Assembly: GCA_030148025.1 (NCBI GenBank)
Contig: JASBUG010000019.1
Location: 1-64,000 of the forward strand
Length of the DNA stretch: 64,000 bases
Reading direction: 5' to 3'
Source: Flavobacteriaceae bacterium
GTDB lineage: Bacteria > Bacteroidota > Bacteroidia > Flavobacteriales > Flavobacteriaceae
The translations under genes and the position numbers were made by a program. The stretch's first letter is position 1; every line of letters starts with the position of its first letter. Shown piece by piece: positions 8,612 to 60,623 of this stretch. The notes under the pieces were generated by a model. The model was not told the DNA's origin. It worked only from the letters and a program-made list of their open reading frames with translations, and did no database searches.

Positions 8612-9283
8612 ATGAAAAACAAACATCTTAACCTATTAGTAGTATTGATAGTACTTTTTGTTACAACTACACATGCGCAACATCAAAACTTTAATATTAA
8701 AAACGGATTTAGTGTTGGCGGAGGTATTAGCCTCTTTAATATTAAAACAGATAATTTCACAACAAAACAAGGAAGCGGTTATTTTGTTTCTCTAGCCACT
8801 ACAGTAGATATACCTCATAGATGGTATACTGTAAGTTATGGTATGCAGATATCTGAAAACACCTTTGAAATATCTGGCAGAATGACCGATGACGTCGCTG
8901 GTAACGAAGCTATAGAGTATAAGCTCATGGCGGCACAACTTAGTTTTTTATTTCACGCAAAGCTTATTGGGAGCCATCTTACTTTTGATGCTGGTCCGCA
9001 AATACAATATAACGGTGATCTAGATTTAAAAAACAGCCAACAAGAAGATTATTTTATAAATGGTTATAATAATGTATCGGCTTCAGATATTACTAAAATG
9101 TCTAAGTTTAATGCTAATGGTGCTGTTGGTATTACAGCAGGATTTGGACCTTTAAAGTTTAGAGCGCAATATATTTATGGGTTTTTAAACATGTTTAATA
9201 AGTTAAACGATGAATTAACTGTAAACGATACTTTTAAAGGAAATCCAGAGAGTTTAATGTTCTCTGCTATGTTTACCTTTTAA
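8612..9283 (+). CDS. PorT-like outer-membrane beta-barrel protein
   Basis: A 223-residue protein with a signal peptide (MKNKHLNLLVVLIVLFVTTTHAQ, cleavage near 23) followed by about eight amphipathic strands, for example GFSVGGGISLFNIK, GYFVSLATTVDIP, WYTVSYGMQISEN, AAQLSFLFHAKLI and LKFRAQYIYGFLNMF. It ends in FSAMFTF, with the aromatic terminal residue expected of outer-membrane barrels. It resembles outer-membrane beta-barrel (PorT-like) domain proteins. The role is unknown. It is transcribed alone, with its own promoter and a strong terminator. Confidence 0.75.
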   Translation: MKNKHLNLLVVLIVLFVTTTHAQHQNFNIKNGFSVGGGISLFNIKTDNFTTKQGSGYFVSLATTVDIPHRWYTVSYGMQISENTFEISGRMTDDVAGNEAIEYKLMAAQLSFLFHAKLIGSHLTFDAGPQIQYNGDLDLKNSQQEDYFINGYNNVSASDITKMSKFNANGAVGITAGFGPLKFRAQYIYGFLNMFNKLNDELTVNDTFKGNPESLMFSAMFTF

Positions 9284-35359: not shown

Positions 35360-36508
35360 ATGAATAAAAAGAAAATTCTCATAGTTTTTGGAACTAGACC
35401 AGAAGCAATAAAAATGGCTCCACTTGTTAAAGAGTTTCAAAATAATATTAATATTTTCGAGACTAAGGTATGTATTACTGCACAACATAGAGAAATGTTA
35501 GATCAGGTGCTATCTTTTTTTGAAATTACCCCAGATTTCGATCTAGATTTAATGAAGCCAGGGCAAAATCTATATGATTTAACAGCTGCGATTTTATCAA
35601 ACCTCAAACCCGTTTTAGAAGAATATAAACCCGATTTTGTTTTTGTACATGGTGATACGACCACAACTATGGCAACAAGTTTAGCAACTTTTTATTCTGG
35701 AGCAAAAATATGTCATGTAGAAGCAGGATTAAGGACTTTTAATATGCAATCTCCTTTTCCTGAAGAGATGAATAGATGCGTGACTAGTATAGTGACTAAT
35801 TTACATTTCGCACCTACAAAGACTTCTAAAGAAAATTTAATTAAGGAGAATAAAACAGAAAACTGTATAATTATTACTGGAAATACAGTAATTGACGCTC
35901 TTCTATATAGTGTTAATAAGGTTAACAGTCCAAATTTTGAAGATGAAGAGGTGAACATGCTAAAACATGTGGTTGATTTTGATAAAAGGCTAATCTTGGT
36001 AACAGGTCATAGAAGAGAAAATCATGGTAAAGGGTTTATAAATATCTGTGAAGCCTTAAAAGAGTTAGCAATTAAAAACCCTAATTGTGAAATTGTTTAC
36101 CCTGTTCACTTAAATCCTAATGTTCAAAAGCCAGTATATGATCTATTAAGCGGTGTTTCTAATATTAAATTAATATCTCCATTATCTTATCCTGCGTTTG
36201 TTTGGTTAATGGAGAAATCTTTCCTAATAATAACAGATAGTGGAGGGATTCAAGAAGAGGCGCCAAGTTTGGGCAAACCAGTCTTAGTGATGCGTAATAC
36301 TACAGAGAGACCTGAAGCAGTTGAAACAGGAACAGTATTGTTGGTGGGAACAGATAAACAAAAAATAGTAAAAGAAGCACAAACTCTTATAAATAATGAA
36401 GAAGCTTATAAGAAAATGAGCCATCTTCATAATCCCTATGGAGACGGAACCGCATGCAAAAAGATAGTAAATTACATTAAAGAAAAAGAAACAATATTTG
36501 TTAAATAA
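35360..36508 (+). CDS. wecB: UDP-N-acetylglucosamine 2-epimerase (non-hydrolysing)
   Basis: A 382-residue enzyme interconverting UDP-GlcNAc and UDP-ManNAc. Signatures are ILIVFGTRPEAIKMAPLVKE near the N-terminus, TAQHREMLDQVL, VHGDTTTTMA, HVEAGLRTFN, TGHRRENHGKG and DSGGIQEEAPSLGKPVLVMR. The ATG at 35360 (MNKKKILIVFGT) is preferred over an upstream TTG next to the rfbD stop. The stop is one base before wecC, the partner enzyme for UDP-ManNAcA. Confidence 0.95.
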   Translation: MNKKKILIVFGTRPEAIKMAPLVKEFQNNINIFETKVCITAQHREMLDQVLSFFEITPDFDLDLMKPGQNLYDLTAAILSNLKPVLEEYKPDFVFVHGDTTTTMATSLATFYSGAKICHVEAGLRTFNMQSPFPEEMNRCVTSIVTNLHFAPTKTSKENLIKENKTENCIIITGNTVIDALLYSVNKVNSPNFEDEEVNMLKHVVDFDKRLILVTGHRRENHGKGFINICEALKELAIKNPNCEIVYPVHLNPNVQKPVYDLLSGVSNIKLISPLSYPAFVWLMEKSFLIITDSGGIQEEAPSLGKPVLVMRNTTERPEAVETGTVLLVGTDKQKIVKEAQTLINNEEAYKKMSHLHNPYGDGTACKKIVNYIKEKETIFVK

Positions 36509-36509
36509 A

Positions 36510-37733
36510 ATGACGAAAACTCCAGAAGTAATAATGATTGGCTTAGGCTACATCGGACTGCCTACTGCTGCCTTGATAGCTAAAAATAGAACACCAGTAC
36601 ATGGAGTAGATATAAACCCTGGGGTTGTAGATACTATAAATAGCGGAAAAATACATATTGTAGAACCCGAACTAGATCAAATTGTTGAAGATGCTGTAAA
36701 AGAAGGCTATTTAAAAGCTGCAACAACTCCAGTTGAAGGAAATGTATATTTAATTGTAGTTCCAACGCCTTTTAAAGGAAAAAATGAACCAGATATTTCA
36801 TTTGTTGAAGCTGGAACACAAGCTATTATTCCTTTATTAAAAGAGGGAGATTTGTATATTATCGAGTCTACCTCACCAATTGGTACTACTGAAAAAATGA
36901 TGGATTTGATATACTCCTCAAGACCAGAGTTAAGAGACAAAGTATGTATTGCTTATTGCCCTGAAAGAGTATTGCCTGGGAATGTAATGGATGAATTAGT
37001 TCATAACGATAGAGTGATAGGAGGTGTAAATGAAGCTTCAACAAACAAAGCAGTTGAATTTTACAATCAGTTTGTAAAAGGGAAATTACACAAAACTAAT
37101 GCGCGTACTGCTGAGATGTGTAAGCTGGTCGAAAACTCATCGAGAGATGTTCAAATAGCTTTTGCTAATGAATTATCCCTTATTTGTGATAAAGCAGGAA
37201 TAAATGTTTGGGAGCTAATAGAGTTAGCGAATAAGCATCCAAGGGTCAATATTTTACAACCAGGTTGTGGAGTAGGAGGGCACTGTATAGCAGTGGATCC
37301 ATATTTTATAGTTTCTGATTATCCTATGGAATCCCAAATAATTGGTAAGGCGCGTGAGATAAATAACTATAAATCGTTTTGGTGTGCTGAAAAAGTACAA
37401 ACTGCAAAGCTTGAATTTGAACTAAAACACGGACGCAAACCCAAAATAGCATTAATGGGGTTAGCTTTTAAACCTAATATTGACGACTTGAGAGAATCAC
37501 CAGCAAAATACATAGTACAAAAGGTTCTTCAAAACGCTAATAATGAAGAATATTTTATTGTAGAACCAAATATATCATCTCATAAAGTTTTTAAATTAAC
37601 AGATTGCCATGAAGCTGTTCAAGAAGCTGATATAGTTGTGTTTTTAGTAGCACATAAAGAATTTTTATCGCTTAAACTATCTGATGATAAACCAGTTTTA
37701 GATTTTTGTGGTGTATTTAAAAAAGAACATTAG
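36510..37733 (+). CDS. wecC: UDP-N-acetyl-D-mannosamine dehydrogenase
   Basis: A 407-residue NAD-dependent four-electron sugar-nucleotide dehydrogenase giving UDP-ManNAcA from the WecB product. It has the Rossmann motif GLGYIGLPTAALIAK, VPTPFKGKNEPD, the YCPERVLPG segment and the catalytic cysteine in PGCGVGGHCIAVDPYF. ATG 36510 is used; an in-frame TTG lies 12 bases upstream. The distinction from other UDP-HexNAc dehydrogenases rests on the wecB neighbour and overall pattern. Confidence 0.93.
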   Translation: MTKTPEVIMIGLGYIGLPTAALIAKNRTPVHGVDINPGVVDTINSGKIHIVEPELDQIVEDAVKEGYLKAATTPVEGNVYLIVVPTPFKGKNEPDISFVEAGTQAIIPLLKEGDLYIIESTSPIGTTEKMMDLIYSSRPELRDKVCIAYCPERVLPGNVMDELVHNDRVIGGVNEASTNKAVEFYNQFVKGKLHKTNARTAEMCKLVENSSRDVQIAFANELSLICDKAGINVWELIELANKHPRVNILQPGCGVGGHCIAVDPYFIVSDYPMESQIIGKAREINNYKSFWCAEKVQTAKLEFELKHGRKPKIALMGLAFKPNIDDLRESPAKYIVQKVLQNANNEEYFIVEPNISSHKVFKLTDCHEAVQEADIVVFLVAHKEFLSLKLSDDKPVLDFCGVFKKEH

Positions 37734-39038: not shown

Positions 39039-40937
39039 ATGTGTGGATTTTCAGGGTTTATCGATTATAATAAAACTTCTTCAAAGGAAGTTTTGAAGAG
39101 TATGACTGATGTATTAACATACAGAGGTCCTGACGACAGAGGTTATTCCTTTTATGATGAAGCTAATTATCATTTAGGCTTAGGTCATAGAAGATTATCT
39201 ATTTTAGATTTATCTTCACTAGGTCATCAACCAATGAAGTATAAAAACTTGGAAATTATCTATAATGGAGAGGTGTATAATTTTAAAGAAATTAGAAAAG
39301 AACTTATAAAATTGGGTTTTGAATTTTCATCTGATTCTGACACTGAGGTAATTTTAAAATCATTTCATTACTGGGGAGAAAAAGCTGTTCTAAAATTTAA
39401 TGGAATGTTCGCCATTTGTTTTCTTGATAGAAAGAATCATAATTTAAAGATATTTAGAGATAGAGCAGGGGTTAAACCCTTATATTGGAGTTGGAATGAA
39501 GATTTATTATTATTCTCGAGTGAATTAAAAAGCTTTTCAGAACACCCTGAGTATAATAAGAAGATTAACTTTAATGCCCTAGGTTTATTCCTGCAATACG
39601 GATATATCCCACAACCGCATTCAATATTTGAAAACACGTATAAATTAAAGTCGGGACATTTCTTAAATATAGATTTACGTTCTAAACATATTGAAGAAAA
39701 GCAATATTGGAACGTTTTAGATTATTATAGAAAACCAAAATTAAACCTAAGCCTAAATGAAGCTATTGAAGAAACAGAAAGAATATTAATATCATCTTTT
39801 AATTACAGAATGGTATCAGATGTTCCCGTTGGTCTATTTTTGAGCGGAGGATATGATAGCTCCGTGACTACAGCTATTCTCCAAAAGAACAGTAAAAATA
39901 AAATCAATACTTTTACTATTGGATTTAAAGAGAAAGGATACGACGAGTCTCCTTTTGCTAAAAGAGTTGCCAATTATTTAGGTACAAACCATACAGAATA
40001 TTATTGTACTCAAAAAGAAGCGTTAGACATTATCCCGGATTTACCAGATATTTATGATGAACCATTTGGAGATAGCTCTGCAATTTCGACCATATTGGTT
40101 AGTAAACTAGCAAAGAAAGATGTAACTGTGAGTTTGAGTTCTGACGGAGGCGATGAAATTTTTGGAGGATACAGTAAATACCGACTTTTGAAAAGTTATT
40201 TTGAGAAATTCTCAAAAATTCCAGCCAGAAAACAATTGTCAAAGCTAATTCAAGGTATTAACCCCGAGAGAATACCCTTTACAAATACAATAGGTAACTT
40301 TAACACAAAATATTATAAACTAGCTAATAAGCTAGGAGCTGAAAATTCTGCCGAAATGCTTAGATATTACAGTGAATATTTTACTTTTAAAGAAACAAGA
40401 AAACTTTTAGTAAATAAGTATTCAAAAGAACATACTTATTTTGAAAATAGTATTTTGCTGACAAATGACAAGAATAGTATTGATAGTATGCTGGCAACTG
40501 ACTATCTAACATATATGGTAGATGATGTTCTTACAAAGGTTGATAGAGCAACAATGTCATTCAGTCTAGAGGGCAGAGAACCATTATTAGATTATAGAAT
40601 TATAGAATTTGTAGCTCAGTTACCACCTGAATATAAAATATATAATGGTATAGATAAGTATATTTTAAAAGAAATTACACATAAGTATATTCCTAAAAAA
40701 CTAATGGAGAGGCCTAAAATGGGCTTTGCTGTACCCATTTATACATGGTTTAAAGATGAATTAAAAGACTTGTTTTACGAATACTTAAATAAAGATCGTT
40801 TAGAGAAAGAAGGAATTTTCGATGTTGATGAGGTGATAAAGCTTAGAGATAAATACTTTAATGGTAATAAAGAAAATGTTAGAAGACTATGGTTTATTCT
40901 AATGTTTGAAATGTGGTATGAAAGATGGATGAAGTAA
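39039..40937 (+). CDS. asnB: Glutamine-hydrolysing asparagine synthase-type amidotransferase
   Basis: A 632-residue two-domain enzyme. The N-terminal class II glutaminase has catalytic Cys2 (MCGFSGF) and YRGPDDRGY; the synthetase domain has the ATP pyrophosphatase loop SGGYDSSV (about 270-277) and SSDGGDEIFGGYSKY. Classical AsnB makes asparagine. Within glycan loci, homologs such as WbpS-type proteins are linked to amidation of uronic acids, and wecC and ugd here supply such acids. So the role is more likely glycan amidation than amino-acid supply, by inference. It overlaps the next gene by 13 bases. Confidence 0.9.
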   Translation: MCGFSGFIDYNKTSSKEVLKSMTDVLTYRGPDDRGYSFYDEANYHLGLGHRRLSILDLSSLGHQPMKYKNLEIIYNGEVYNFKEIRKELIKLGFEFSSDSDTEVILKSFHYWGEKAVLKFNGMFAICFLDRKNHNLKIFRDRAGVKPLYWSWNEDLLLFSSELKSFSEHPEYNKKINFNALGLFLQYGYIPQPHSIFENTYKLKSGHFLNIDLRSKHIEEKQYWNVLDYYRKPKLNLSLNEAIEETERILISSFNYRMVSDVPVGLFLSGGYDSSVTTAILQKNSKNKINTFTIGFKEKGYDESPFAKRVANYLGTNHTEYYCTQKEALDIIPDLPDIYDEPFGDSSAISTILVSKLAKKDVTVSLSSDGGDEIFGGYSKYRLLKSYFEKFSKIPARKQLSKLIQGINPERIPFTNTIGNFNTKYYKLANKLGAENSAEMLRYYSEYFTFKETRKLLVNKYSKEHTYFENSILLTNDKNSIDSMLATDYLTYMVDDVLTKVDRATMSFSLEGREPLLDYRIIEFVAQLPPEYKIYNGIDKYILKEITHKYIPKKLMERPKMGFAVPIYTWFKDELKDLFYEYLNKDRLEKEGIFDVDEVIKLRDKYFNGNKENVRRLWFILMFEMWYERWMK

Positions 40938-44492: not shown

Positions 44493-45779
44493 ATGAATAA
44501 ATTTCAAGATATTTATCTGACACTTAAAGGGATTTTTTTATTTAAAGCTAAATTTGAAAAAAATCCATATAAAAAAGAAGATAAAATTAAACAATATCAG
44601 TTTCTTAAATTAAAGAAACTATTAATAGAATCGTATCAAAATGTACCGTATTACAGTAAATTATTTGATCAAATAAGCTTTAACCCATCTAAAGATTTTA
44701 ATAGCTTAGAGGATTTAGAAAAAATACCAGTTTTAGATAAGAAAACTGTTAGAAAAACTCCCGAAGAGTTTTATAATAAAAAAATTCCAAAATATTTGAC
44801 TTTGTTTACATCAGGATCTACTGGTAACCCTCTAAAAGTTATAGTATCTTTCTATGCTTGGGTGGTTGAGCAGGCAGTTGTATGGATGCATTGGTAATGG
44901 GCAGGATATAATTTTAGAGATATAATGGCTATTTTAAGAAGCTATGTTCCTAAAGATGGAAAATTGGTTAAAAAGGATAAACTAAGAAACTTTATTTATT
45001 TCAGCCCTTTTCATATTAATGATGAAAATTCGGCTTATTATTTGAATTTGATGAAGGAAGAAAAGGTTAAGTTTTTAAGAGGGTACCCTTCTTCTATTAA
45101 GGCTTTAGCTGATTTTATTAAAAACAGTAACTATACCCCGCCAAAGATTAAAGGAATATTAGTTGCCTCTGAAAGACTCTCTTCAAAAGACAAACAAATT
45201 ATAGAATCTGCTTTTAACAGTAAAGTATACAATCATTATGGGCTGGCAGATATTTGTGTTATGATGGGCAGTTGTGAACAAGGGATGGGGTTACATAATT
45301 ATCAGGATTATGGCTATTTAGAATTGCAGGATAATGAATCTGAAAATATAAAGAAAATTATTGGAACAAATCTTCATAACTATGCAATGCCATTGATTCG
45401 TTATAATACTGGAGACTTGGCTGAAGTAAGTGAGTGTAATTGTAATTGTTCTCGAAATTTTCCAGTTATTAATAATATTTTAGGTCGAAACGATTCTTCT
45501 ATAAAGACTGTGGAGGGCTATAGTATTCCAACTGTTAATTTTTATACCATGTTTGAGTATTATATGGAAATTGAACAATGGCAAATAGTTCAGAAATCTT
45601 TAAAAGAAATTGTAATTAACATAAGAGCAAATGGAAATTTACTAGAACTAAAGAAAAATATTTTGAATGATTTTCAAAAAAGAGTCCCAAAGTCAATAAC
45701 TTTGTCTGTTCGATTTAATTTAGGATTTGTAACAAAAAATGAGGGGAAAATCCCAACTTTTATAAATGATGTTATATAA
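44493..45779 (+). pseudogene. PaaK/CapK-like adenylate-forming enzyme interrupted by one in-frame stop
   Basis: Two reading-frame pieces, 44493-44894 and from 44898 on, are in the same frame and together form one phenylacetate-CoA-ligase-like protein of about 428 residues. The only interruption is TAA at 44895-44897 (codon 135), between VVWMHW and WAGYNFRDI. The first part has the phosphate loop TSGSTGNPLK (about 106-115). The second has YNHYGLADICVMMGSCEQGM, RYNTGDLAEV and a CNCNCSRNFPVINNILGR segment like the C-terminal hinge. CapK-type enzymes occur in capsule loci and probably activate a carboxylic acid for transfer. As written the gene cannot give a full protein without readthrough. A re-initiated C-terminal product from ATG 44925 would lack the ATP loop. 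A sequencing error is possible. Confidence 0.85.
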
Positions 45780-46377
45780 AAAAAAGGAAATAGCATTATT
45801 TGATTTTGATGGAACCATTACTAATAAGGATTCCACGCAAGAGTTTTATAAATTTGTATATAAAAAATCATTTTGGTTTGAGTATTATATCAAAAATTTG
45901 AGTTTCCTGATTTTAATTAAACTCAATATTAAAAACTACAATCAACTAAAAATTAGAAGATTAAAAAGAATCATCGACTATTTAGGGCCGGATGAGTTTA
46001 AAAAAAAAGCTGCTGAATTTCAAAGAATAGTTTTGCCAGGTATACTAAAAAAAGATGCTTTGGATAAAATATATGAATTTAAAGAAAATGAAATAGAAGT
46101 TGTGATTGTTTCAGCTTCAATGAACGTATTGTTAGATGAATTTTGTAATAAGTTAAATTTACAACTAATCACTAATGAATTGGAGATAAATAACAAAGTG
46201 TATTCAGGAAGTTTTATTCTTGAAAAAGATTGTAATTTTGAGGAGAAAGTTAGTAGAATTCGTATTGCTTATCCTGATATTGAAAATATGTATGTTTATG
46301 CTTTTGGAGATACAGAAGGAGATAGGGCTATGCTCAAGCTTGCGAACGAGTCTTTTTATAGAGTTTTTAAAAAATAA
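45766..46377 (+). CDS. HAD-IB family phosphatase (SerB-like)
   Basis: A 203-residue HAD-superfamily hydrolase. Motif I is ALFDFDGTITNKDSTQEF with nucleophile Asp (about 13) and acid/base Asp two residues on. Motif II is VVIVSASMNV and motif IV is YAFGDTEGDRAML. The length and the IB-type cap resemble phosphoserine phosphatase and related enzymes. Two consecutive ATGs (45766 and 45769) are possible starts. It overlaps the end of the CapK-like gene by 14 bases and is followed by an aminotransferase, so it may dephosphorylate an intermediate in making an amino-acid-like substituent. That is inference. Confidence 0.85.
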   Translation: MMLYKKKEIALFDFDGTITNKDSTQEFYKFVYKKSFWFEYYIKNLSFLILIKLNIKNYNQLKIRRLKRIIDYLGPDEFKKKAAEFQRIVLPGILKKDALDKIYEFKENEIEVVIVSASMNVLLDEFCNKLNLQLITNELEINNKVYSGSFILEKDCNFEEKVSRIRIAYPDIENMYVYAFGDTEGDRAMLKLANESFYRVFKK

Positions 46378-46385
46378 AGATTATT

Positions 46386-47486
46386 ATGTTCAGAAATAAA
46401 AGTATTAATAACCTTAAACCATATAAAGTTACTTCTCATAAGGCTTGGGAGTATAAAGAAGATAAAAATGTTTTAAAATTGGATTGGAATGAAGCAACTA
46501 TCTTACCTTCTCCTATGGTTGAAAAAAGGCTTGAGAATGTTATTAAAAATGGAAGGTTAAATTGGTATCCTGACACAAATAATATAGTTTTATTAAATAA
46601 AATCAGCAAATATAATAATGTAAACGTTTCAAATGTACAATATTTTGCAAGTTCAGATGCATTACATGAATACATTGTAAGATGTTTTATTGGGGAATCT
46701 GATCGAGTACTAATTATTGGGCCAACTTATGATAATTTTAGAGCTGTTGCAGAAAGCAACGGTGCTCAGATTCAAAACTATTATTTGAACTCTAGCTTTG
46801 AGCTGGATTATGGAAAATTCCTTGAAGATTTAAAGTTAATTCAACCTAAGGTAGTTTATATTGTCAACCCTAATAATCCTACTGGAACTTTACATCCTAA
46901 AGAGGAATTAATAAACTTAATACAGAGTAATACCGATATCTTTTTTATAGTAGATGAGGCATATTATGAATTTTCAGGTATTACTCTTTCTCAAGAAGTA
47001 AAAAAATATAAAAACGTGTTAATCTCCAGAACCTTTTCTAAAGCATTTGCGTTAGCAAGCTTTAGAATTGGTTATACTATTTCACATGAAGATAATATTG
47101 AAGTTTTAAATTCAATTAGAAATCCAAAAAATGTATCATTATTTGCTCAAGAGGCAGCAGTTGCAGCTCTAAGTGATATAGAATATACAAAAAACTATGT
47201 CAAAGATGTTTTAAACACAAAGACTAATTTTAGTAAGGCAATTAAAAAATTTCATTGGATTGATGTTGTGTACGAAGGTACTGGAAATTTTGTGTTTTTT
47301 TCCTTTAAAGAAGTGAAACAGAAAAAAGAACTTCTTAAATTTTTTAGTGAAAACAAAATTTTTATTAGGGATTATGGCCATATAGATTTAACAAATAAAT
47401 TTGTAAGAATAACCATGGGAAAATCAACAGAAATGAGTAGGGTTTTAGAGGCACTTAATACTTTTGACAGTGAGTTTGTTAGTTGA
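46386..47486 (+). CDS. HisC-like class I/II aminotransferase (PLP-dependent)
   Basis: A 366-residue fold-type I PLP enzyme resembling histidinol-phosphate aminotransferase. LDWNEATILPSPMVEKRLEN opens the domain, VYIVNPNNPTGTLHPKEEL is the substrate/PLP loop, IVDEAYYEFSG has the PLP-ring Asp and Tyr, and SRTFSKAFALASFRIGY contains the Schiff-base Lys (about 219). It is probably not the histidine-pathway enzyme, given its place among glycan genes. With the HAD phosphatase and CapK-like enzyme upstream it forms a compact three-gene set. Confidence 0.85.
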   Translation: MFRNKSINNLKPYKVTSHKAWEYKEDKNVLKLDWNEATILPSPMVEKRLENVIKNGRLNWYPDTNNIVLLNKISKYNNVNVSNVQYFASSDALHEYIVRCFIGESDRVLIIGPTYDNFRAVAESNGAQIQNYYLNSSFELDYGKFLEDLKLIQPKVVYIVNPNNPTGTLHPKEELINLIQSNTDIFFIVDEAYYEFSGITLSQEVKKYKNVLISRTFSKAFALASFRIGYTISHEDNIEVLNSIRNPKNVSLFAQEAAVAALSDIEYTKNYVKDVLNTKTNFSKAIKKFHWIDVVYEGTGNFVFFSFKEVKQKKELLKFFSENKIFIRDYGHIDLTNKFVRITMGKSTEMSRVLEALNTFDSEFVS

Positions 47487-48787: not shown

Positions 48788-50905
48788 ATGAAACAAATTA
48801 TACAGGATCTTAAAAATGGCGATACAATTTTAGAGGAAGTTCCTGTCCCTCAAATCAAAAGCGGCCATGTATTAATAAAAACGACACGTTCATTGGTATC
48901 ATTAGGTACTGAAAGAATGCTAGTTGAATTTGGTAAAGCAAATTTCATTCAAAAAGCTAAACAACAACCTGACAAGGTTAAAATGGTTTTAGATAAAGTG
49001 AAAACTGATGGTTTAAAACCAACTATGAATTCAGTTTTTAACAAACTCAACCAGCCATTACCTTTAGGGTATTGTAATGTTGGAGAAGTTGTTGGTGTAG
49101 GAAAAGGTGTTTCCGAATTTCAAATAGGAGATAGAGTAGCGTCAAATGGACATCATGCAGAATATGTAAATGTGCCAAAAAACCTAGTTGCTAAAATACC
49201 TGATAATGTATCAGATGAAGAAGCTGCATTTACTGTAATAGGTTCTATAGGGCTTCAAGGAATTAGATTATTAGATCCTACATTTGGAGAAACAATCGTA
49301 GTTGTAGGCCTAGGGTTAATTGGATTAGTGACCGCTGAGTTACTTCTAGCAAATGGATGTAATGTTATTGGGTTTGATTTTGATCCAGAAAAGATTAGGA
49401 TAGCCAAAGAAAAAGGAATTATAGCTATTAATCCAGCTGAAGGTGTAGATCAAGTTAAGTTTATTGAATCTTACACAAATGGAATTGGAGTTGATGGTGT
49501 TATTATAACGGCAAGTAATAAAAGCAATGAAATTATTTCTCAATCTGCAAAAATGTGTCGAAAAAGAGGACGAATAATTCTTGTTGGTGTTATAGGGCTA
49601 GATATTAGTCGTGCTGATTTTTTTGAGAAGGAATTAACATTTCAAGTATCTTGTTCTTATGGACCAGGTCGTTATGACGAATCATATGAACAAAAAGGAA
49701 ATGACTATCCTATAGGATACGTTAGGTGGACTGAAAAACGAAATTTTGAAACGGTATTAAAAGCTATTTCTAGAAACGCTTTAGATGTAAAACCTTTAAT
49801 TACAGAAAGAATAGATATAAATGATTACCTGCAAATTTACGGTAACATGAATAATAGCCGCTCCATTGCCTCTATTCTACAGTATAATAATAATGCTGAA
49901 ACAGTTAGAACAGTTGAGGTTTACAATAAATCTTTTGAAGGGAAAAAAGGAGTAATAGGAATAATTGGAGCAGGTAACTTTACAAGCTCAACTATTTTAC
50001 CAAATCTTAAAAAGATTGGAGCTGACATTAAATATATAGCAAGTTCTGGAGGATTATCTTCTACAACTATGGCAAAAAAACACGGTATAGCTAATTCTAC
50101 ATCAGACTATACTGAAATTTTAAAAGATACAGATACCGATTTAATTTTTGTTACCACAAAGCACAATTTGCATGCAAAAATGGTTTTAGAAACCTTAGAT
50201 GCTAATAAAAGTGTATTTGTAGAGAAGCCTTTAGCTCTTAATGCGCAGGAACTAATTAAAATAGAAGAAGCTTATAGGAATAGTAAAGGAAATGTTTCTG
50301 TAGGCTTTAATAGACGCTTTGCACCTCTAGCTTTACAAATGAAAAAGTTATTAGGAAACACTAACGAGCCAATAAATATAATTGCTACCATGAATGCTGG
50401 ATTTATTCCGGCAGAGGTTTGGGTTCATGATATGGAAGTTGGAGGCGGTAGAATTATTGGAGAAGCGTGTCACTTTATCGATTTATGTACATATTTTTCA
50501 GGTAGTGAGGTTGTTGAAGTTTGTATGAATGCGTTAGGAACAAATCCACAAGAAAACACAGACAATGCAACCATTATATTAAAATATAAAAATGGTACTA
50601 ATGCAGTAATAAACTATTTTGCTAATGGAAGTAAAGCGTATTCTAAAGAGAGAGTGGAAATCTATTCTCAAGAGCGCACTCTTGTTATGGATAATTGGCG
50701 AAAGTTAAAAACCTATGGGTTTAAAGGAGGAAATATGTCATCTGGACAAGATAAAGGGCATTATAATCAATTTAAAGCGCTAATAGAACAACAAAAATCT
50801 GGAGGGGATGCAATAATTCCCTTTGAAGAAATAGTTAATACCACTAAGGCTTCTTTTACCGCGATAGAATCTCTTAAACAAGGTAAATGGATTTCGGTAA
50901 AATAA
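48788..50905 (+). CDS. Bi-domain oxidoreductase: Zn-dehydrogenase-like plus Gfo/Idh/MocA domain
   Basis: A 705-residue fusion. Residues about 1-350 are an MDR/zinc-type alcohol dehydrogenase fold (SLGTERMLVEFGKANFIQKA, IGDRVASNGHHAEYVNVPKN, VVGLGLIGLVTAELLLANGC). Residues about 385-700 are a Gfo/Idh/MocA oxidoreductase (GVIGIIGAGNFTSSTILPNL, VEKPLALNAQELIKIEEAY, GGRIIGEACHFIDLCTYFSG). Fused proteins of this type occur in glycan clusters next to heparinase-like genes, as here. The reaction is unknown; oxidation or epimerisation of a sugar is plausible. It overlaps the heparinase-like gene by 19 bases. Confidence 0.9.
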   Translation: MKQIIQDLKNGDTILEEVPVPQIKSGHVLIKTTRSLVSLGTERMLVEFGKANFIQKAKQQPDKVKMVLDKVKTDGLKPTMNSVFNKLNQPLPLGYCNVGEVVGVGKGVSEFQIGDRVASNGHHAEYVNVPKNLVAKIPDNVSDEEAAFTVIGSIGLQGIRLLDPTFGETIVVVGLGLIGLVTAELLLANGCNVIGFDFDPEKIRIAKEKGIIAINPAEGVDQVKFIESYTNGIGVDGVIITASNKSNEIISQSAKMCRKRGRIILVGVIGLDISRADFFEKELTFQVSCSYGPGRYDESYEQKGNDYPIGYVRWTEKRNFETVLKAISRNALDVKPLITERIDINDYLQIYGNMNNSRSIASILQYNNNAETVRTVEVYNKSFEGKKGVIGIIGAGNFTSSTILPNLKKIGADIKYIASSGGLSSTTMAKKHGIANSTSDYTEILKDTDTDLIFVTTKHNLHAKMVLETLDANKSVFVEKPLALNAQELIKIEEAYRNSKGNVSVGFNRRFAPLALQMKKLLGNTNEPINIIATMNAGFIPAEVWVHDMEVGGGRIIGEACHFIDLCTYFSGSEVVEVCMNALGTNPQENTDNATIILKYKNGTNAVINYFANGSKAYSKERVEIYSQERTLVMDNWRKLKTYGFKGGNMSSGQDKGHYNQFKALIEQQKSGGDAIIPFEEIVNTTKASFTAIESLKQGKWISVK

Positions 50906-52467
50906 AACTGTTAATTCAAACTTTAAAGTATTTACGCTTTAAACAAATATATTATCGTGTTTACTATTTTTTTAGAAATAAATTTTTCCCAGCTAAGGTA
51001 AAGAGGGAGTATCAAGGAAATGAATCTCAAGTTGTCTGGAAAAATTTTGAAGTAAAACATAAAAATTCTTCAATAGATAACATTTTTACTTTTCTAAATT
51101 TAAGCCATTCTTTTGAAGATAAGATTGACTGGAACTATTCTAAGAACGGAAAGCTTTGGACTTATAATTTAAACTATTTCGACTTTCTGAATCAAGAAGA
51201 AATATCTGTTGAAAAAGGATTTTTTTTAATTGAAAATTATATAGAAAATGACGATTCTTTAATAGACGGAAAAGAACCATATCCTATTTCATTAAGAGGG
51301 ATTAATTGGGTAAAGTTCTTATCTAAAAATCAAATAAAGAATAGTAAAGTTGATGAAGTCCTATATGCTCACTATCAATTATTATTGAGTAATTTAGAAT
51401 ATCATCTTTTAGGCAATCATTTACTTGAAAATGGATTTGGTTTATTATTTGGAGCATATTATTTTCAAGATGAGAAACTATATAAAACTGCAAAAAAGAT
51501 TCTTAAGGCTGAGTTAGAAGAACAAATTTTAAATGACGGGGCACACTTTGAGCTTTCACCAATGTACCATCAAATTTTATTACATCGCGTTTTAGATTGT
51601 ATATCATTAATTCAACAAAATAGCTGGAAAAACCAAGAGATGTTATCATTTTTAACTCAAAAAGGATTGGTAATGCTATCATGGCTTGAACAAATAACCT
51701 ATAAGAGTGGAAATATACCTATGGTAAATGATTGTGCCTATGATATTGCTCCATCATCTAAAAAACTATTTAAATATGCGCAAGAGCTACGGGTTAATTG
51801 GAATAAAAACTCTGAACTTTCAGACTCAGGATATCGTAAAGTAAAAAAAGATAATTATGAACTTTTCATAGATGTTGGCAATGTTCGCCCAAGCTATCAA
51901 CCAGGGCACGCACACTCCGATACTTTTAACTTTGAATTATATTATAATAATAAACCTTTAATTGTTGATGTCGGCACTTCAACTTATGAAAAAAATGAGT
52001 TACGACAATTAGAACGAAGTACGCAATCTCATAATACAGTTCAGATAGAAAAATACGAACAAACTGAAGTTTGGGGTGGGTTTAGAGTTGCAAGACGTGC
52101 AAAAATAATTGATATAGTAGAAAAAGATAACTCTATTAAAGCGAAACATGATGGTTATAAAAAATTAGGACTTCTCCATCAAAGAGAGTTTGTTTGTGAT
52201 TCACAAAAAATAACAATTAAAGATGAAGTTATAGGAAGCACGTCAAGAAAGAAGTATGCTTATTTTCACTTTCATCCTAGTATAAAAAATGTTATTGTAA
52301 ATAAAGACTTCATTGAGGTTAATAGTAATATAAAAATTACTTTTGAAGGCAACTTAGATATAAAACTTTCAGAATATAATTATGCAGTTGGTTTTAATAA
52401 GACGGAACAAGCTATTAAAATAAATGTATTGTTTGATAAAAGTTTACAAACCCAAATTGATTTATGA
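50887..52467 (+). CDS. Heparinase II/III-like (alginate-lyase-fold) protein
   Basis: A 526-residue protein. The N-terminal helical half (about 60-320) contains PISLRGINWVKFLS and GNHLLENGFGLLFGAYYF. The C-terminal beta domain (about 330-520) contains QPGHAHSDTFNFELYYNNKP, DVGTSTYEKNELRQLERST and SHNTVQI, the heparinase II/III signature with probable catalytic His and Tyr. No cleavable signal peptide is evident, which is usual for the copies found inside polysaccharide biosynthesis loci and suggests a role in synthesis or quality control rather than degradation. It is tightly linked to the bi-domain oxidoreductase. Confidence 0.88.
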   Translation: MDFGKIKLLIQTLKYLRFKQIYYRVYYFFRNKFFPAKVKREYQGNESQVVWKNFEVKHKNSSIDNIFTFLNLSHSFEDKIDWNYSKNGKLWTYNLNYFDFLNQEEISVEKGFFLIENYIENDDSLIDGKEPYPISLRGINWVKFLSKNQIKNSKVDEVLYAHYQLLLSNLEYHLLGNHLLENGFGLLFGAYYFQDEKLYKTAKKILKAELEEQILNDGAHFELSPMYHQILLHRVLDCISLIQQNSWKNQEMLSFLTQKGLVMLSWLEQITYKSGNIPMVNDCAYDIAPSSKKLFKYAQELRVNWNKNSELSDSGYRKVKKDNYELFIDVGNVRPSYQPGHAHSDTFNFELYYNNKPLIVDVGTSTYEKNELRQLERSTQSHNTVQIEKYEQTEVWGGFRVARRAKIIDIVEKDNSIKAKHDGYKKLGLLHQREFVCDSQKITIKDEVIGSTSRKKYAYFHFHPSIKNVIVNKDFIEVNSNIKITFEGNLDIKLSEYNYAVGFNKTEQAIKINVLFDKSLQTQIDL

Positions 52468-53731: not shown

Positions 53732-54862
53732 GTGGCGTTATACTATCCTGTTATTTTTTTTATTGGAGCCTATCTTTTAACCTTTTTCACTATACCTAAG
53801 ATAATTGGACTAGTTGAATATAAAAAATTAATGGATGAACCAAATAGGAGAAGTTCTCATGAAAGAGTTACACCTACTCTAGGAGGAGTGTCTTTTTTCT
53901 ATACTTTAATACTAGCTTTATTTTTTCTTAAAAATTGGGGTACATATGATGAAGCTATATTTTTTGTCCCCGGGATAACAATTTTGTTTATTATTGGACT
54001 TAAGGATGATTTAGTTGTGCTGTCGCCATATACAAAATTAGTAGCTCAAATCATTGCAATCTCATTTATTTTATCTAATGAGGGTTTTATAATACACTCT
54101 TTAAATGGATTCTTTGGAATATATGAAATACCTATTTATATATATTATATTATTGCTGGATTTATGATGTTGACCATAATTAACGCGTATAATTTAATTG
54201 ACGGAATTGATGGATTAGCAGCTATAGTAGGAGTGGTAATTTTAATTATTTACAGTGCTATCTTCTATATGGCTCAAGAATATTTTTTTCTATTGATAAG
54301 CTTAGTGCTAAATGGATCTTTAATGGCTTTTTTAAAATATAATTTGTCTTCTGAGAAAAAGATTTTCATGGGAGACACAGGGTCATTAATTGTAGGCTTT
54401 GTTATAAGTACTTTAACTTTAAAATTTTTAGCACTATCACCCGAAAAATATGACAGCCTTCCATTCTTATTAGAAAATGTACCGTTAATAGCTATAAGTA
54501 TTTTAATAGTTCCTTTATTTGATACAGCCAGGGTGTTTACCATTAGATTAGCCAATAAGAAAAGCCCCTTTTCTCCAGACAGAAATCATACACATCATAT
54601 TTTAATAGATTACTTTAAAATATCTCACCAACAAGCAAGCTTTATTATTGGGGGATTTAATTTAATCTTTGTATATCTTTTTATTCTTCTAGGGAGTGCT
54701 TCTTATAACCTCTGGTTAGTAGTAACTTTAGTTTGTACAGTAGTTATTTTAGGCTATCTTTTTTATCGTTTTGATTATAGTTTTGCTAATATTAAAAGGA
54801 AAATACGATTTAGAAGGAAAATAGATAAATTAAAAGGAAAAGTAAAAAAAAACAGTAAATGA
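53732..54862 (+). CDS. MraY/WecA-family polyprenyl-phosphate sugar-1-phosphate transferase
   Basis: A 376-residue polytopic enzyme that transfers a HexNAc-1-phosphate from its UDP-form to undecaprenyl phosphate. Visible motifs are RRSSHERVTPTLGGVSFF, GLKDDLVVLSPYTKL (the DD Mg site), NAYNLIDGIDGLA, FMGDTGSLIVGF and the cytoplasmic HIHH-type motif DRNHTHH. It resembles WecA/WbpL rather than MraY by its neighbours. The start is GTG 53732. ATGA overlaps ugd. A second, WbaP-type initiating enzyme is at 57163. Confidence 0.9.
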   Translation: MALYYPVIFFIGAYLLTFFTIPKIIGLVEYKKLMDEPNRRSSHERVTPTLGGVSFFYTLILALFFLKNWGTYDEAIFFVPGITILFIIGLKDDLVVLSPYTKLVAQIIAISFILSNEGFIIHSLNGFFGIYEIPIYIYYIIAGFMMLTIINAYNLIDGIDGLAAIVGVVILIIYSAIFYMAQEYFFLLISLVLNGSLMAFLKYNLSSEKKIFMGDTGSLIVGFVISTLTLKFLALSPEKYDSLPFLLENVPLIAISILIVPLFDTARVFTIRLANKKSPFSPDRNHTHHILIDYFKISHQQASFIIGGFNLIFVYLFILLGSASYNLWLVVTLVCTVVILGYLFYRFDYSFANIKRKIRFRRKIDKLKGKVKKNSK

Positions 54863-56178
54863 AAATATCAGTAATCGGAACGGGTTATGTTGGGTTAGTT
54901 ACAGGTACTTGTTTAGCTGAAACAGGAAATAATGTGCTTTGTATCGATATAAATGAAGATAAAGTTAGAAAAATGCAAGAGGGCGAGGTACCTATTTATG
55001 AACCTCATTTGGATGTGCTTTTCGAAAGAAATATTAAAGCAGGCAGATTAAAATTTTCTACTTCTCTTGATGAAGGGTTGAATCATGGAGATATTATTTT
55101 TCTGGCTCTTCCAACACCTGAAGATGAAGACGGATCTGCAGATTTATCTTATGTTTTAGGAGTTGCATCACAGATAGGTAAAAAGATACAATCATATAAA
55201 GTAATAGTAGATAAAAGCACAGTTCCTGTGGGAACGGCTGATAAGGTGACTCAAGTTATTTCGCAGGAAACAGATATTGATTTTGACGTAGTATCTAACC
55301 CAGAGTTTTTGAGAGAAGGTTTTGCCGTGGATGATTTTTTAAAACCTGAACGAATTGTAATAGGATCAGAGTCTGAAAAAGCGATAGGTTTAATGAAGAA
55401 GCTTTATAAACCATTTGTTAGATCAGGTAATCCCATTATTGTAATGGATGAGCGTTCTGCTGAATTAACAAAATATGCCGCAAACTCATTTTTAGCCACC
55501 AAGATAACCTTTATGAATGAGATTGCTAACTTTTGTGAAAAGGTTGGAGCTGATGTAGATAAGGTTCGTATTGGTATGGGAACAGACTCTAGAATTGGCA
55601 AACGATTTTTATTTCCTGGAATTGGTTATGGAGGTTCTTGTTTCCCTAAAGATGTGAAGGCATTACACAAATCAGGTAAAGATTTTGGATATGACTTTAG
55701 TATTTTAAACTCAGTAATTAAAATTAATGATATTCAGAAAAAAGTATTAGTGCCAAGAATTGAAAAATATTTCAAAAATGACATTAAAGGCAAAACAATT
55801 GCAATTTGGGGATTATCATTTAAACCTGAAACGGATGACATTAGGGAAGCCCCCGCTCTATATATAATTGAAGAACTTTTAAGTAAAGGTGCAAAAATTA
55901 AAGTATTTGACCCTGAAGCAATGCCAAACGTTAAACGTAAATTTGGAGATCAACTTATTTATACCTTAAATAAATATGAGGCTACCAAAAACGCAGATGC
56001 ATTACTTATTTGCACAGAATGGAGTATTTTTAGAACTCCTGATTTTGTTAAATTAAAAGAAGAATTAAAATTACCAGTTATTTTCGATGGTAGAAATCTT
56101 TTTGAGGTTGAGGAAATGGAAAAGGAAGGGTTTTATTATAGTTCTATTGGAAGAAAAAATGCGGATCAAATATTTTGA
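54859..56178 (+). CDS. ugd: UDP-glucose 6-dehydrogenase
   Basis: A 439-residue NAD-dependent dehydrogenase making UDP-glucuronic acid. [20 protein letters not shown] is the Rossmann motif, [14 protein letters not shown] and [20 protein letters not shown] are family signatures, and the catalytic Cys lies in [34 protein letters not shown] marks the C-terminal domain. The stop TGA overlaps the TTG start of the next gene (TTGA), which uses the product. Confidence 0.96.
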
Positions 56179-58564: not shown

Positions 58565-59335
58565 ATGGTTTCGGTTATTACACCTACGTTTAATTCTGAA
58601 CAGTTTATTGCAAAAACAATAACTTCAATTGTTGAGCAAACATATCAACATTGGGAGCTTATAATTGTAGATGATGCATCAACCGATAAGACTCGTACAA
58701 TAATTGAAGCATTTGCAAAAAAAGATAATAGAATTACACTTATAACTCATGCGCAAAATCAAGGAGCTGGTATTGCTAGAAATACAGCAGTCAAAAATGC
58801 TAAAGGTGATTATATAGCCTTTTTGGACGCGGATGATCTATGGAGACCAAATAAACTAGAAATTCAGTTACAATTCATGAAAGAGAACAATGTAAATGTT
58901 TGCTTCTCTTCATACGAACTTATCAATGAGAACGGAGAATCATTAAATAAAATTATTGAAGCATTACCTTCATTATCTTACAAAAAACAACTTAAATGTA
59001 ATTATATAGGTAATTTAACAGGAATGTATAATGCAAAAGCATTAGGGAAGTTGCCCATTTCAAAATTAAGAAAGAGACAAGATTGGGTGATGTGGTTAGA
59101 TATCCTGAAAAAAGCTGGAATGGCAAAAGGAATTAAAGAATCGCTTGCATATTATCGAGTAAGAAAAGAGTCGATGTCTGCCAGTAAAATGGAATTAATT
59201 ACTTATAACTATTTAGTATACAGAAAAGCATTGGGCTTTGGGTTTATTAAGTCAACAATCTATTTATTAAGATTTTTATATGAGTACTTCATCATAAAAT
59301 CTAAACAAATAAAATCGATAAAAACTACTGTTTAA
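58565..59335 (+). CDS. Glycosyltransferase family 2
   Basis: A 256-residue GT-A glycosyltransferase. VSVITPTFNSEQFIAKTITS is the N-terminal nucleotide-binding strand, LIIVDDASTDKT and FLDADDLWRPNKLEIQ provide the DxD-type metal site, and RKRQDWVMWLDILKK the acceptor-side ED-like motif. It is cytoplasmic and probably adds an early sugar after WbaP. It is the last + strand gene of the cluster and overlaps the convergent PaaK-like gene by 11 bases; no clear terminator is present. Confidence 0.9.
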   Translation: MVSVITPTFNSEQFIAKTITSIVEQTYQHWELIIVDDASTDKTRTIIEAFAKKDNRITLITHAQNQGAGIARNTAVKNAKGDYIAFLDADDLWRPNKLEIQLQFMKENNVNVCFSSYELINENGESLNKIIEALPSLSYKKQLKCNYIGNLTGMYNAKALGKLPISKLRKRQDWVMWLDILKKAGMAKGIKESLAYYRVRKESMSASKMELITYNYLVYRKALGFGFIKSTIYLLRFLYEYFIIKSKQIKSIKTTV

Positions 59336-60623
59336 GTAAAGAGGTAAACTGTTTTAATTTTCCTCGTTTAGTGCGCCTAAGTGTGTCTTGTTTTACAAAT
59401 GATAGTTCAATGCTTGGTTCAAGATATTTATCTAAAGCTTTTTTGATTTGCTGTTCTTGACCACCTGTTAGTTGTTGATGTGATACATATTGGATTTCAA
59501 AACAATTAATTGTTGTTTGTGTAACCTTAATTTCTGTGACATTTCCATCATCTTGCATAATTGCTTTAGTCACATAATAAAAGGCAAGACCAGGAACAGT
59601 TTTTCCACTAGGAAGCTTAATATAATCTTCTTTTCTACCAATAATACTTTCTAGAACAAGAGAATTATTGTCTATCGCTATTTTCCCAATATCACCAATG
59701 TCATATCGTATAAATGGGTGAGCTTTATTATAAAGATCGGTTATGACAATTCTCCCCTCTTCTCCATAAGGTAAAACATTGTTGTGCTCATCAAGAATTT
59801 CAACGTATAGATTCAAATTGTTTAACACCCATTTTGTATCTTTTTCTAACGCAATTAAACCAAACTCAGCAGCACCATACTCTTTTGCAACAGGAATATT
59901 AAAAGCTTTTGAAATAAGCGCCTTGTCATCATCTGAACACATTTCAGACGTAGGAAAGCAAACCTTAAGTGTAGGGCAAATATTTGAAAGCACGATGTTT
60001 TTAGAGATCAAATGTCTTGCAAAGGCAGTTATAACCGTAGTGTAACCTGTTATGTAAACAAATTTGTTTTTAGAAAATACATCTATCCAGGAATCTAATG
60101 CGCTTTCAGACAAGTCAAAAACATCAAAACGATACCTGTTGCTTAACAAGTCCTTTAAACGCTCCTTAAGCCTTAGTAAACCGCTTTTTGGAATACCATA
60201 AAAACGGGCCTGTTTTTTATTATGAACACCGTACCAATTATACCATTTATAAAACACAGACCAAGTCATGGCATGTGCAAAGCGGCTTTTTGCAAAAATT
60301 AACGGGTTTCCAGAAGACCCCGAAGTTTTATTTACATAGCAATTATTTTTTGTAAACCCTTTGGTTAAGCGTTTTTTTAGCGGGAGTTGTAAATCGTATT
60401 TCGAGATTACCGGAACATCATTCCAATTATTTATTTTGACACATTTTGTAAACGATTTATAAAATGAATTGTGAGTTAAATGAAAATTTAAAATTTCACT
60501 TTTTTTATGTTCAATTTGTTGCTGTAACGCTGTATCGTTCAAGCTATATAGTTTATTCAATTCCTTCCTAGCCTCCCTAATAGGGAACCCATTAAAACGC
60601 AATGTTAGATCGAATAAATTCAA
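59325..60623 (-). CDS. PaaK/CapK-like phenylacetate-CoA ligase family protein (intact)
   Basis: A 432-residue ANL-superfamily enzyme. It has the phosphate loop KTSGSSGNPLIF (about 108-119), KEYGAAEFGLIA as the A5-type motif, FIRYDIGDIGKI and IGRKEDYIKLPSGKTVPG at the hinge, and a C-terminal DTLRRTKRGKLKQF with the probable catalytic Lys. It is likely to activate a carboxylate with ATP, perhaps for transfer to the glycan. The start is TTG 60623 (MNLFDLTLRFNGFPIREA). It is convergent with the GT2 gene and divergent from purD. It shares fold and length with the broken gene at 44493 but is clearly different in sequence. Confidence 0.88.
   Translation of the reverse strand: MNLFDLTLRFNGFPIREARKELNKLYSLNDTALQQQIEHKKSEILNFHLTHNSFYKSFTKCVKINNWNDVPVISKYDLQLPLKKRLTKGFTKNNCYVNKTSGSSGNPLIFAKSRFAHAMTWSVFYKWYNWYGVHNKKQARFYGIPKSGLLRLKERLKDLLSNRYRFDVFDLSESALDSWIDVFSKNKFVYITGYTTVITAFARHLISKNIVLSNICPTLKVCFPTSEMCSDDDKALISKAFNIPVAKEYGAAEFGLIALEKDTKWVLNNLNLYVEILDEHNNVLPYGEEGRIVITDLYNKAHPFIRYDIGDIGKIAIDNNSLVLESIIGRKEDYIKLPSGKTVPGLAFYYVTKAIMQDDGNVTEIKVTQTTINCFEIQYVSHQQLTGGQEQQIKKALDKYLEPSIELSFVKQDTLRRTKRGKLKQFTSLLKQ

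Follow-up and report, generated by a model that had tools for sequence, protein, structure and literature searches.

What is made by three adjoining genes, for a CapK-type adenylating enzyme, a phosphatase and an aminotransferase, within a surface-polysaccharide locus? The question is raised by a stretch of 64,000 nucleotides (the window) of contig JASBUG010000019.1, from a Flavobacteriaceae bacterium (GenBank assembly GCA_030148025.1). The genes for CapK (44493–45779), a HAD-IB phosphatase (45766–46377) and a HisC-fold aminotransferase (46386–47486) stand in tandem on the forward strand at 44493–47486. The CapK stop codon (45777–45779) overlaps the start of the HAD gene at 45766, and 8 bases separate the HAD end at 46377 from the HisC start at 46386. 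An earlier note on this DNA had described the three genes, their spacing and their setting among Wzx/Wzy genes. The positions, the overlap, the gap and the neighbours were confirmed; CapK is however not one open frame, since a TAA at 44895–44897 lies within it.

The proposed product is an amide between a uronic acid of a Wzx/Wzy-type surface polysaccharide and a serinol-type amine (2-amino-1,3-propanediol), which the cassette would both make and attach, with CapK replacing an ATP-grasp ligase; this answer is favoured with moderate confidence. Every catalytic step, that of CapK included, is inferred. The HisC-like enzyme would yield serinol phosphate by transaminating a small ketone that bears a phosphate, dihydroxyacetone phosphate being the likeliest. 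CapK would adenylate the carboxylate of a sugar uronate, either N-acetylmannosaminuronic acid (ManNAcA) made via WecB/WecC or glucuronic acid (GlcA), and attack by the amine would give the amide. CapK would thereby stand in for the TupA-like ATP-grasp amidoligase of Campylobacter jejuni and Escherichia coli O143. The HAD enzyme would strip the phosphate, probably after amide formation by analogy with C. jejuni. Amination, dephosphorylation and amide linkage are thus kept from the earlier note, which had the phosphate removed before an acid was activated; the acid activated is now probably a uronate that belongs to the glycan itself, not an additional one.

The cassette is supported as a recurrent module of surface-glycan loci, as the earlier note had supposed in calling it a glycan-decoration module. 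Close orthologues of the window HisC-like enzyme are rare in its family: as bait against 397 genomes of that family, it matched only its own genome at E ≤ 1e-42, and the cassette was therefore located via CapK instead. A scan of the contig collection with HisC alone found nothing. With the C-terminal half of CapK as bait, 63 of the 397 genomes matched at E ≤ 1e-20, its own included, and CapK neighbours were inspected for 22 of the 62 others. In the three closest matches (loci L094, L095 and L096), CapK is flanked by a PHP-domain protein and a CobD/HisC-like pyridoxal phosphate (PLP) enzyme, within loci that hold WecB and WecC. At the other 19 inspected loci, no such PLP enzyme was found within 1.5 kb of CapK.

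A collection-wide scan was made with an alignment of the L094–L096 CapKs and the C-terminal half of the window CapK, and gave 17 loci, three of which are the L094–L096 contigs. A PLP enzyme adjoins CapK in 16 of the 17, a proportion that is not an unbiased rate because the bait was built from PLP-bearing loci; the remaining contig (L138) stops 66 bases past CapK. These 16 loci together with L190 and L205, which came from genome searches, make up 18 distinct loci outside the window. In all 18, a CapK of one branch lies beside, or once is fused to, a HisC/CobD-type PLP enzyme. A phosphatase is present in 16 (10 HAD, 6 PHP), neither kind being recognised in L137 and L139. Family assignments in the cassette loci were confirmed by profile for a sample of them. 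Because it recurs in 18 distinct loci, the arrangement is more than chance, and the rarity of co-occurrence that the earlier note would have held against its module was not found.

Gene order varies among these loci. CapK-HAD-HisC is found in the window and in a Chitinophagaceae locus (L148), which matches exactly up to the following zinc alcohol dehydrogenase (ADH)/Gfo-Idh fusion gene. The order is CapK-HisC-HAD in Campylobacter concisus (L141), L190 and L147, and HisC-CapK-PHP in L149. With a different PLP enzyme, here called PLPx, the orders are HAD-CapK-PLPx (L150), PHP-CapK-PLPx (L094–L096 and L136) and CapK-PLPx-HAD (L142–L146). In L205, a PHP gene is followed by a CapK-HisC fusion in one frame of 803 amino acids, the HisC model matching residues 465–790 and PaaK-type models falling within the first 415. 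In the CapK tree, 19 PLP-adjacent rows including the window lie on one side of a branch (support 91/86) and 22 rows without PLP enzyme on the other; the window groups with L148, L149 and L150 (100/99). A UDP-sugar dehydrogenase gene on the same strand was found in 10 of the 18 loci, and in 5 of the 6 with a window-type aminotransferase. Plasmid searches gave distant matches only, and the two plasmid CapK loci inspected (L196, L197) have no PLP enzyme beside CapK.

Two CapK-PLPx-HAD sets, at 8917–12055 of L143 and 3170–6361 of L145, have no evident polysaccharide genes adjoining. Both have an AsnB-like gene 0.9–3.5 kb away on the opposite strand.

The aminotransferase carries the PF00155 domain, its gene is intact, and its structural model, with a predicted local distance difference test (pLDDT) score of 79, matches HisC structures. 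It scores 271.7 bits on TIGR01141, just short of the hisC cut-off of 276.55, so that "HisC-like" was an apt description. The earlier note had warned that it might be the only HisC of the genome. The genome's own HisC, only 25% identical to it, is encoded on another contig (C10) among HisG, D, C, B, H, A, F and IE, and scores 355 bits, over the cut-off. A role as histidinol-phosphate aminotransferase was rejected, given the score under the TIGR01141 cut-off, the separate clade and the genome's own hisC in a full his operon. A third HisC-like gene of the genome (on C27) has no cassette neighbours. A HisC-like gene on Staphylococcus aureus plasmid CP049442 (L063, 6833–7989) lies in two overlapping frames and looks frameshifted.

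In a maximum-likelihood tree of 36 aminotransferase rows, the window enzyme belongs to a clade of 11 (support 95/88) with those of C. concisus, L190, L147, L148, L149, L205, L191, E. coli O143, L203 and L204. This clade stands apart from 14 HisC-labelled rows, which include E. coli HisC and the genome's own HisC (98/95). Of three further HisC-labelled rows, L157 and L044 group with the C27 paralogue. The window enzyme is 50% identical to that of C. concisus, 44% to that of the HS:19-like locus L191 and 41% to that of E. coli O143; the clade is diverse, with 29–50% identity among seven members compared. Its placement with the L191 and O143 enzymes puts the window enzyme in the clade of serinol-type loci, and the corresponding activity is predicted for it. 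The PLP lysine and two arginines (322 and 335 in E. coli HisC numbering) are kept in all 11 clade members. In the E. coli enzyme, these arginines bind the phosphate of the substrate.

The clade mixes aminotransferases partnered with CapK and with ATP-grasp proteins, its inner order being weakly supported. Among 120 genomes of the C. concisus family, a close aminotransferase was found in three (C. concisus, G475 and G425; E ≤ 1.6e-90, versus 1.8e-37 for the next match). G475 holds a CapK cassette (L190). In G425 (L191), a C-terminal TupA-like ATP-grasp protein, cut by the contig end, is followed by HisC, HAD and GT2 genes, and no CapK was found within its 10.8-kb contig. This gene order is that of HS19.11,.10,.09 and.08 of C. 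jejuni HS:19. When the C. concisus cassette was used for a distant DNA search, 4 of 5426 E. coli genomes gave a match, which covers 17% of the query at 67% identity. The two matches inspected are O-antigen loci, their wzx annotated as O143 family, in which genes for an aminotransferase, a HAD and a TupA ATP-grasp amidoligase follow one another. The aminotransferases of L149 and L203 are 93% identical; that of L149 lies beside CapK and PHP genes, and that of L203 beside HAD and TupA ATP-grasp genes, the 19.8 kb seen there containing no CapK.

No TupA ATP-grasp gene was found in the window or anywhere in its genome (88% complete), nor in C. concisus (G420) or the L148 genome (G421). Of five other genomes searched in this way, three (G425, G422 and G698) yielded one to five such genes and so provide positive controls; 14 standard control genomes yielded none. 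In L204 (8193–10401, reverse strand), the clade aminotransferase lies beside a protein with an asparagine-synthase domain, in which no glutaminase domain was found; this protein may represent a third type of amide ligase in the module.

The phosphatase gene is intact and its product, proposed to strip the amino-alcohol phosphate, matches PF12710 and TIGR01488 over cut-off (87.2 bits on the latter, cut-off 45). The "SerB-like HAD" of the earlier note is thus a HAD phosphatase, but a generic HAD-IB one. The identity as phosphoserine phosphatase SerB was dropped, the score on TIGR00338 being 28.5 bits against a cut-off of 144.15. The protein is 37% identical to the cassette HAD of L148 and 44% to that of L150. 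As bait, it matched 17 of the 397 genomes of its family, own genome included; neither CapK nor HisC was found beside the match in the 16 others, seen as short loci for all 16 and as larger stretches for 15. A second relative in the window genome (on C25) has no CapK or HisC neighbours. In an alignment, HAD motif I reads D-[FY]-C-[DE]-T in L141, L190, L191, L142 and L147, so that a cysteine stands two residues past the nucleophile aspartate where the window protein has aspartate.

The in-frame TAA splits CapK after 134 amino acids, and the same frame resumes to 45776. Because both halves resemble the closest intact relatives about equally (46 and 49% identity to the L148 CapK), the sequence reads as a single gene with a single nonsense codon, which is either a recent loss or else a sequence error. 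The NF045666, FlxY and PaaK models match both halves with scores under their cut-offs. The TSGSTG loop, a YGxxE motif and a C-terminal lysine have known roles in CapK/PaaK enzymes. The window protein keeps the loop and the lysine (in EGK); YGLAD replaces YGxxE, with aspartate instead of the glutamate present in all 15 other aligned CapK rows with letters at that position. The predicted structure of the L148 CapK (pLDDT 87) has the PaaK fold. Its top fold matches are acyl-CoA ligases; further matches are NatL2, AjiA1 and ClxA, and some of the matched structures hold acyl adenylates. ClxA (9s3l) is also the best sequence match of the C-terminal half of the window CapK. By these motifs, and by the modelled fold of its relative, the interrupted gene would encode a CapK/PaaK-like adenylating enzyme, putatively a uronate amide ligase. 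As assembled, the window copy is unlikely to be functional. With CapK interrupted, this genome has probably lost the decoration if the stop is not just a sequence error.

A second, intact CapK/PaaK-like gene lies near the end of the locus at 59325–60623 on the reverse strand. Its product shares no more than 24% identity with any other CapK of the tree and falls outside the PLP-adjacent branch.

Several observations weigh against a serinol-amide cassette. The window CapK is broken by a stop, the best fold matches of its relative are acyl-CoA ligases, and we know of no activity for any CapK of its branch. The window HAD belongs to another branch than those of the Campylobacter-family loci, with only 19–23% identity to the enzymes of L141, L190 and L191 (21% for the last). 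The clade link rests on the L191 and O143 enzymes, not on Cj1437 or HS19.10 themselves; the tree has long branches, and one HisC-labelled row (L158), on a very long one, sits beside the clade. The exchange of ligases is weakened at L149, where a TupA ATP-grasp gene is present as well, 3.4 kb upstream of CapK. A UDP-sugar dehydrogenase is seen in only 10 of the 18 loci; of the other 8 stretches, 4 end at a contig edge and 4 do not. Twelve of the 18 carry PLPx, 21–22% identical to the window enzyme in three compared, and its product may not be serinol. Because PLPx and most HisCs also keep the substrate-phosphate arginines, these residues point to a phosphorylated substrate but not to its identity.

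These observations can be read in other ways. The module may be of the same kind but supply another amine, the window enzyme acting on another small phosphorylated ketone and PLPx possibly decarboxylating a phospho-amino acid to ethanolamine phosphate or aminopropanol phosphate, as Cj1436 does with phosphoserine, while CapK would still make a uronamide. PLPx enzymes do score best with the threonine-phosphate decarboxylase CobD, under its cut-off, and the window clade is diverse; C. jejuni employs both serinol phosphate and ethanolamine phosphate, according to PMC11800397. The nearest contexts by gene order and by tree, L191 and O143, are nevertheless of the serinol type, and another amine is considered rather unlikely, if the best of the alternatives.

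The model and fold matches, the best of which are acyl-CoA ligases, would suit a CapK that activates a hydroxy or fatty acid, as acyl-CoA or acyl-adenylate, for an amino sugar or for the new amine, with HisC and HAD supplying a separate residue or the acylated amine. The 8 loci without a dehydrogenase in the stretch seen, and the position of L145 beside clpB outside any evident polysaccharide locus, fit this explanation. It accounts less well for the fusion of CapK to HisC in L205, for the place of the ATP-grasp amidoligase that CapK occupies in the clade, and for the dehydrogenase found in 5 of the 6 loci with a window-type aminotransferase; a non-uronate acid is judged improbable. It might also be supposed that the window holds a decayed leftover, in which CapK has become a pseudogene, with HAD and HisC idle for the glycan or put to other use. 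The in-frame stop, and the aspartate at a position where the 15 other rows keep glutamate, speak for it. HAD and HisC are intact, however, and both CapK halves retain 46–49% identity to relatives. Decay speaks in any case to the state of the window copy and not to the function of the module, and as an explanation it is very improbable. The serinol-type amide on a uronate is retained as the preferred function.

The surrounding genes offer two possible sources of the uronate. WecB, a UDP-GlcNAc 2-epimerase (35360–36508, forward strand; TIGR00236 over cut-off) that recurs in cassette loci, and WecC, a UDP-ManNAc dehydrogenase (36498–37733, forward; NF008286 over cut-off), form a possible route to ManNAcA. 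A UDP-sugar dehydrogenase, probably acting on UDP-glucose (54859–56178, forward; TIGR03026 over cut-off, 550 bits on the TuaD model with a cut-off of 700), would be an alternative source of GlcA. The locus further contains Wzx-like, AsnB-like, EpsG/Wzy-type, GT4, O-antigen-ligase-type, WecA-like and WcaJ-like sugar-phosphate transferase genes, and a short-chain dehydrogenase/reductase gene taken for a UXS-type enzyme. The AsnB-like gene at 39039 was weighed as an amide former, which may yield a plain uronamide.

Downstream of the cassette are the zinc-ADH/Gfo-Idh fusion oxidoreductase (48788–50905, forward) and a heparinase II/III-type protein (50887–52467, forward), the latter a neighbour in some cassette loci. 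The fusion lies within 4 kb of CapK in 15 of the 18 cassette loci, in several families and in C. concisus. It often accompanies a heparinase II/III gene, and is present too near CapKs without PLP enzyme (L097, L106, L109, L133).

A wider proposition assumes two unrelated classes of sugar-uronate amide ligase: besides the TupA-like ATP-grasp amidoligases, the CapK-family adenylating enzymes encoded in capsule and O-antigen loci would form a second one, and either class could replace the other. Ligases of both classes would combine with a PLP enzyme (HisC or CobD type) and a phosphatase (HAD or PHP) in a mix-and-match kit, by which Bacteroidota, Campylobacterota and Ignavibacteriota would place amino-alcohol amides on their glycans. 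The chances for and against it are held to be equal. The differing ligase partners of close aminotransferases, with the CapK-HisC fusion, yield a specific, testable prediction for one CapK branch. CapK-like genes are common, as the 63 genomes in one family illustrate, and none of those in polysaccharide loci has, to our knowledge, a demonstrated reaction. If the prediction holds, glycan amides would become predictable from sequence; such amides take negative charge off the coat and alter the serological type.

The earlier note knew of no characterised pathway with this set of genes. Among the literature matches listed, neither CapK as an amide-forming enzyme nor a CapK-HAD-HisC pathway was found described, and the available parts of papers on Vibrio cholerae NRT36S, Bordetella b-Cool and marine carbohydrate antigens concern other uronamides and hold nothing on CapK. 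The chemistry is partly known, as the aminotransferase groups with HS:19-like Campylobacter and O143 enzymes, whose product is or should be serinol phosphate. With HisC of histidine synthesis, the window enzyme shares the fold and the pocket residues but not the clade. Some PaaK-type ligases of small-molecule pathways form amides. NatL2, AjiA1 and ClxA belong to such pathways and have the same fold as the L148 CapK model; their substrates, by entry titles, are aromatic acids (salicylate, 3-amino-4-hydroxybenzoate), not glycans. The S. aureus type 1 capsule locus, likened to the window by content and not by sequence, presumably has a CapK-type gene and a polymer with a taurine amide of N-acetylgalactosaminuronic acid, on which a literature search gave no paper; we know of no HisC-HAD pair there. 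The E. coli O143 O-antigen locus shares with the window an aminotransferase followed by a HAD, but its third gene encodes an ATP-grasp amidoligase where the window has CapK. We assume that this antigen contains a serinol amide of GlcA; a literature search gave no paper on the O143 structure.

The closest comparison is with C. jejuni HS:2 and HS:19, where an aminotransferase (Cj1437/HS19.10), a HAD-family phosphatase (Cj1435/HS19.09) and a carboxylate-amide ligase (the C-termini of Cj1438/HS19.11) adjoin as in the cassette. According to PMC11800397, (S)-serinol phosphate arises when Cj1437 transaminates dihydroxyacetone phosphate; it is then coupled to glucuronate by the C-terminal domain of Cj1438, which uses ATP, before Cj1435 removes the phosphate. 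For HS:19, PMC13276843 reports HS19.11C as a demonstrated uronate amidoligase, with Cj1435 substituting for HS19.09 in the phosphatase step, and assigns the function of HS19.10 by similarity; PMC10919079 words that function as shown. The HS:19-ordered locus L191 carries an aminotransferase of the window's clade. The C. jejuni amide ligase is a TupA-like ATP-grasp enzyme yielding ADP, whereas the window has an adenylating enzyme of CapK/PaaK type. Because it lacks the TupA-like amidoligase and has CapK in its place, the window cassette is not filed as a member of the C. jejuni serinol-amide type, and is regarded only as working like it.

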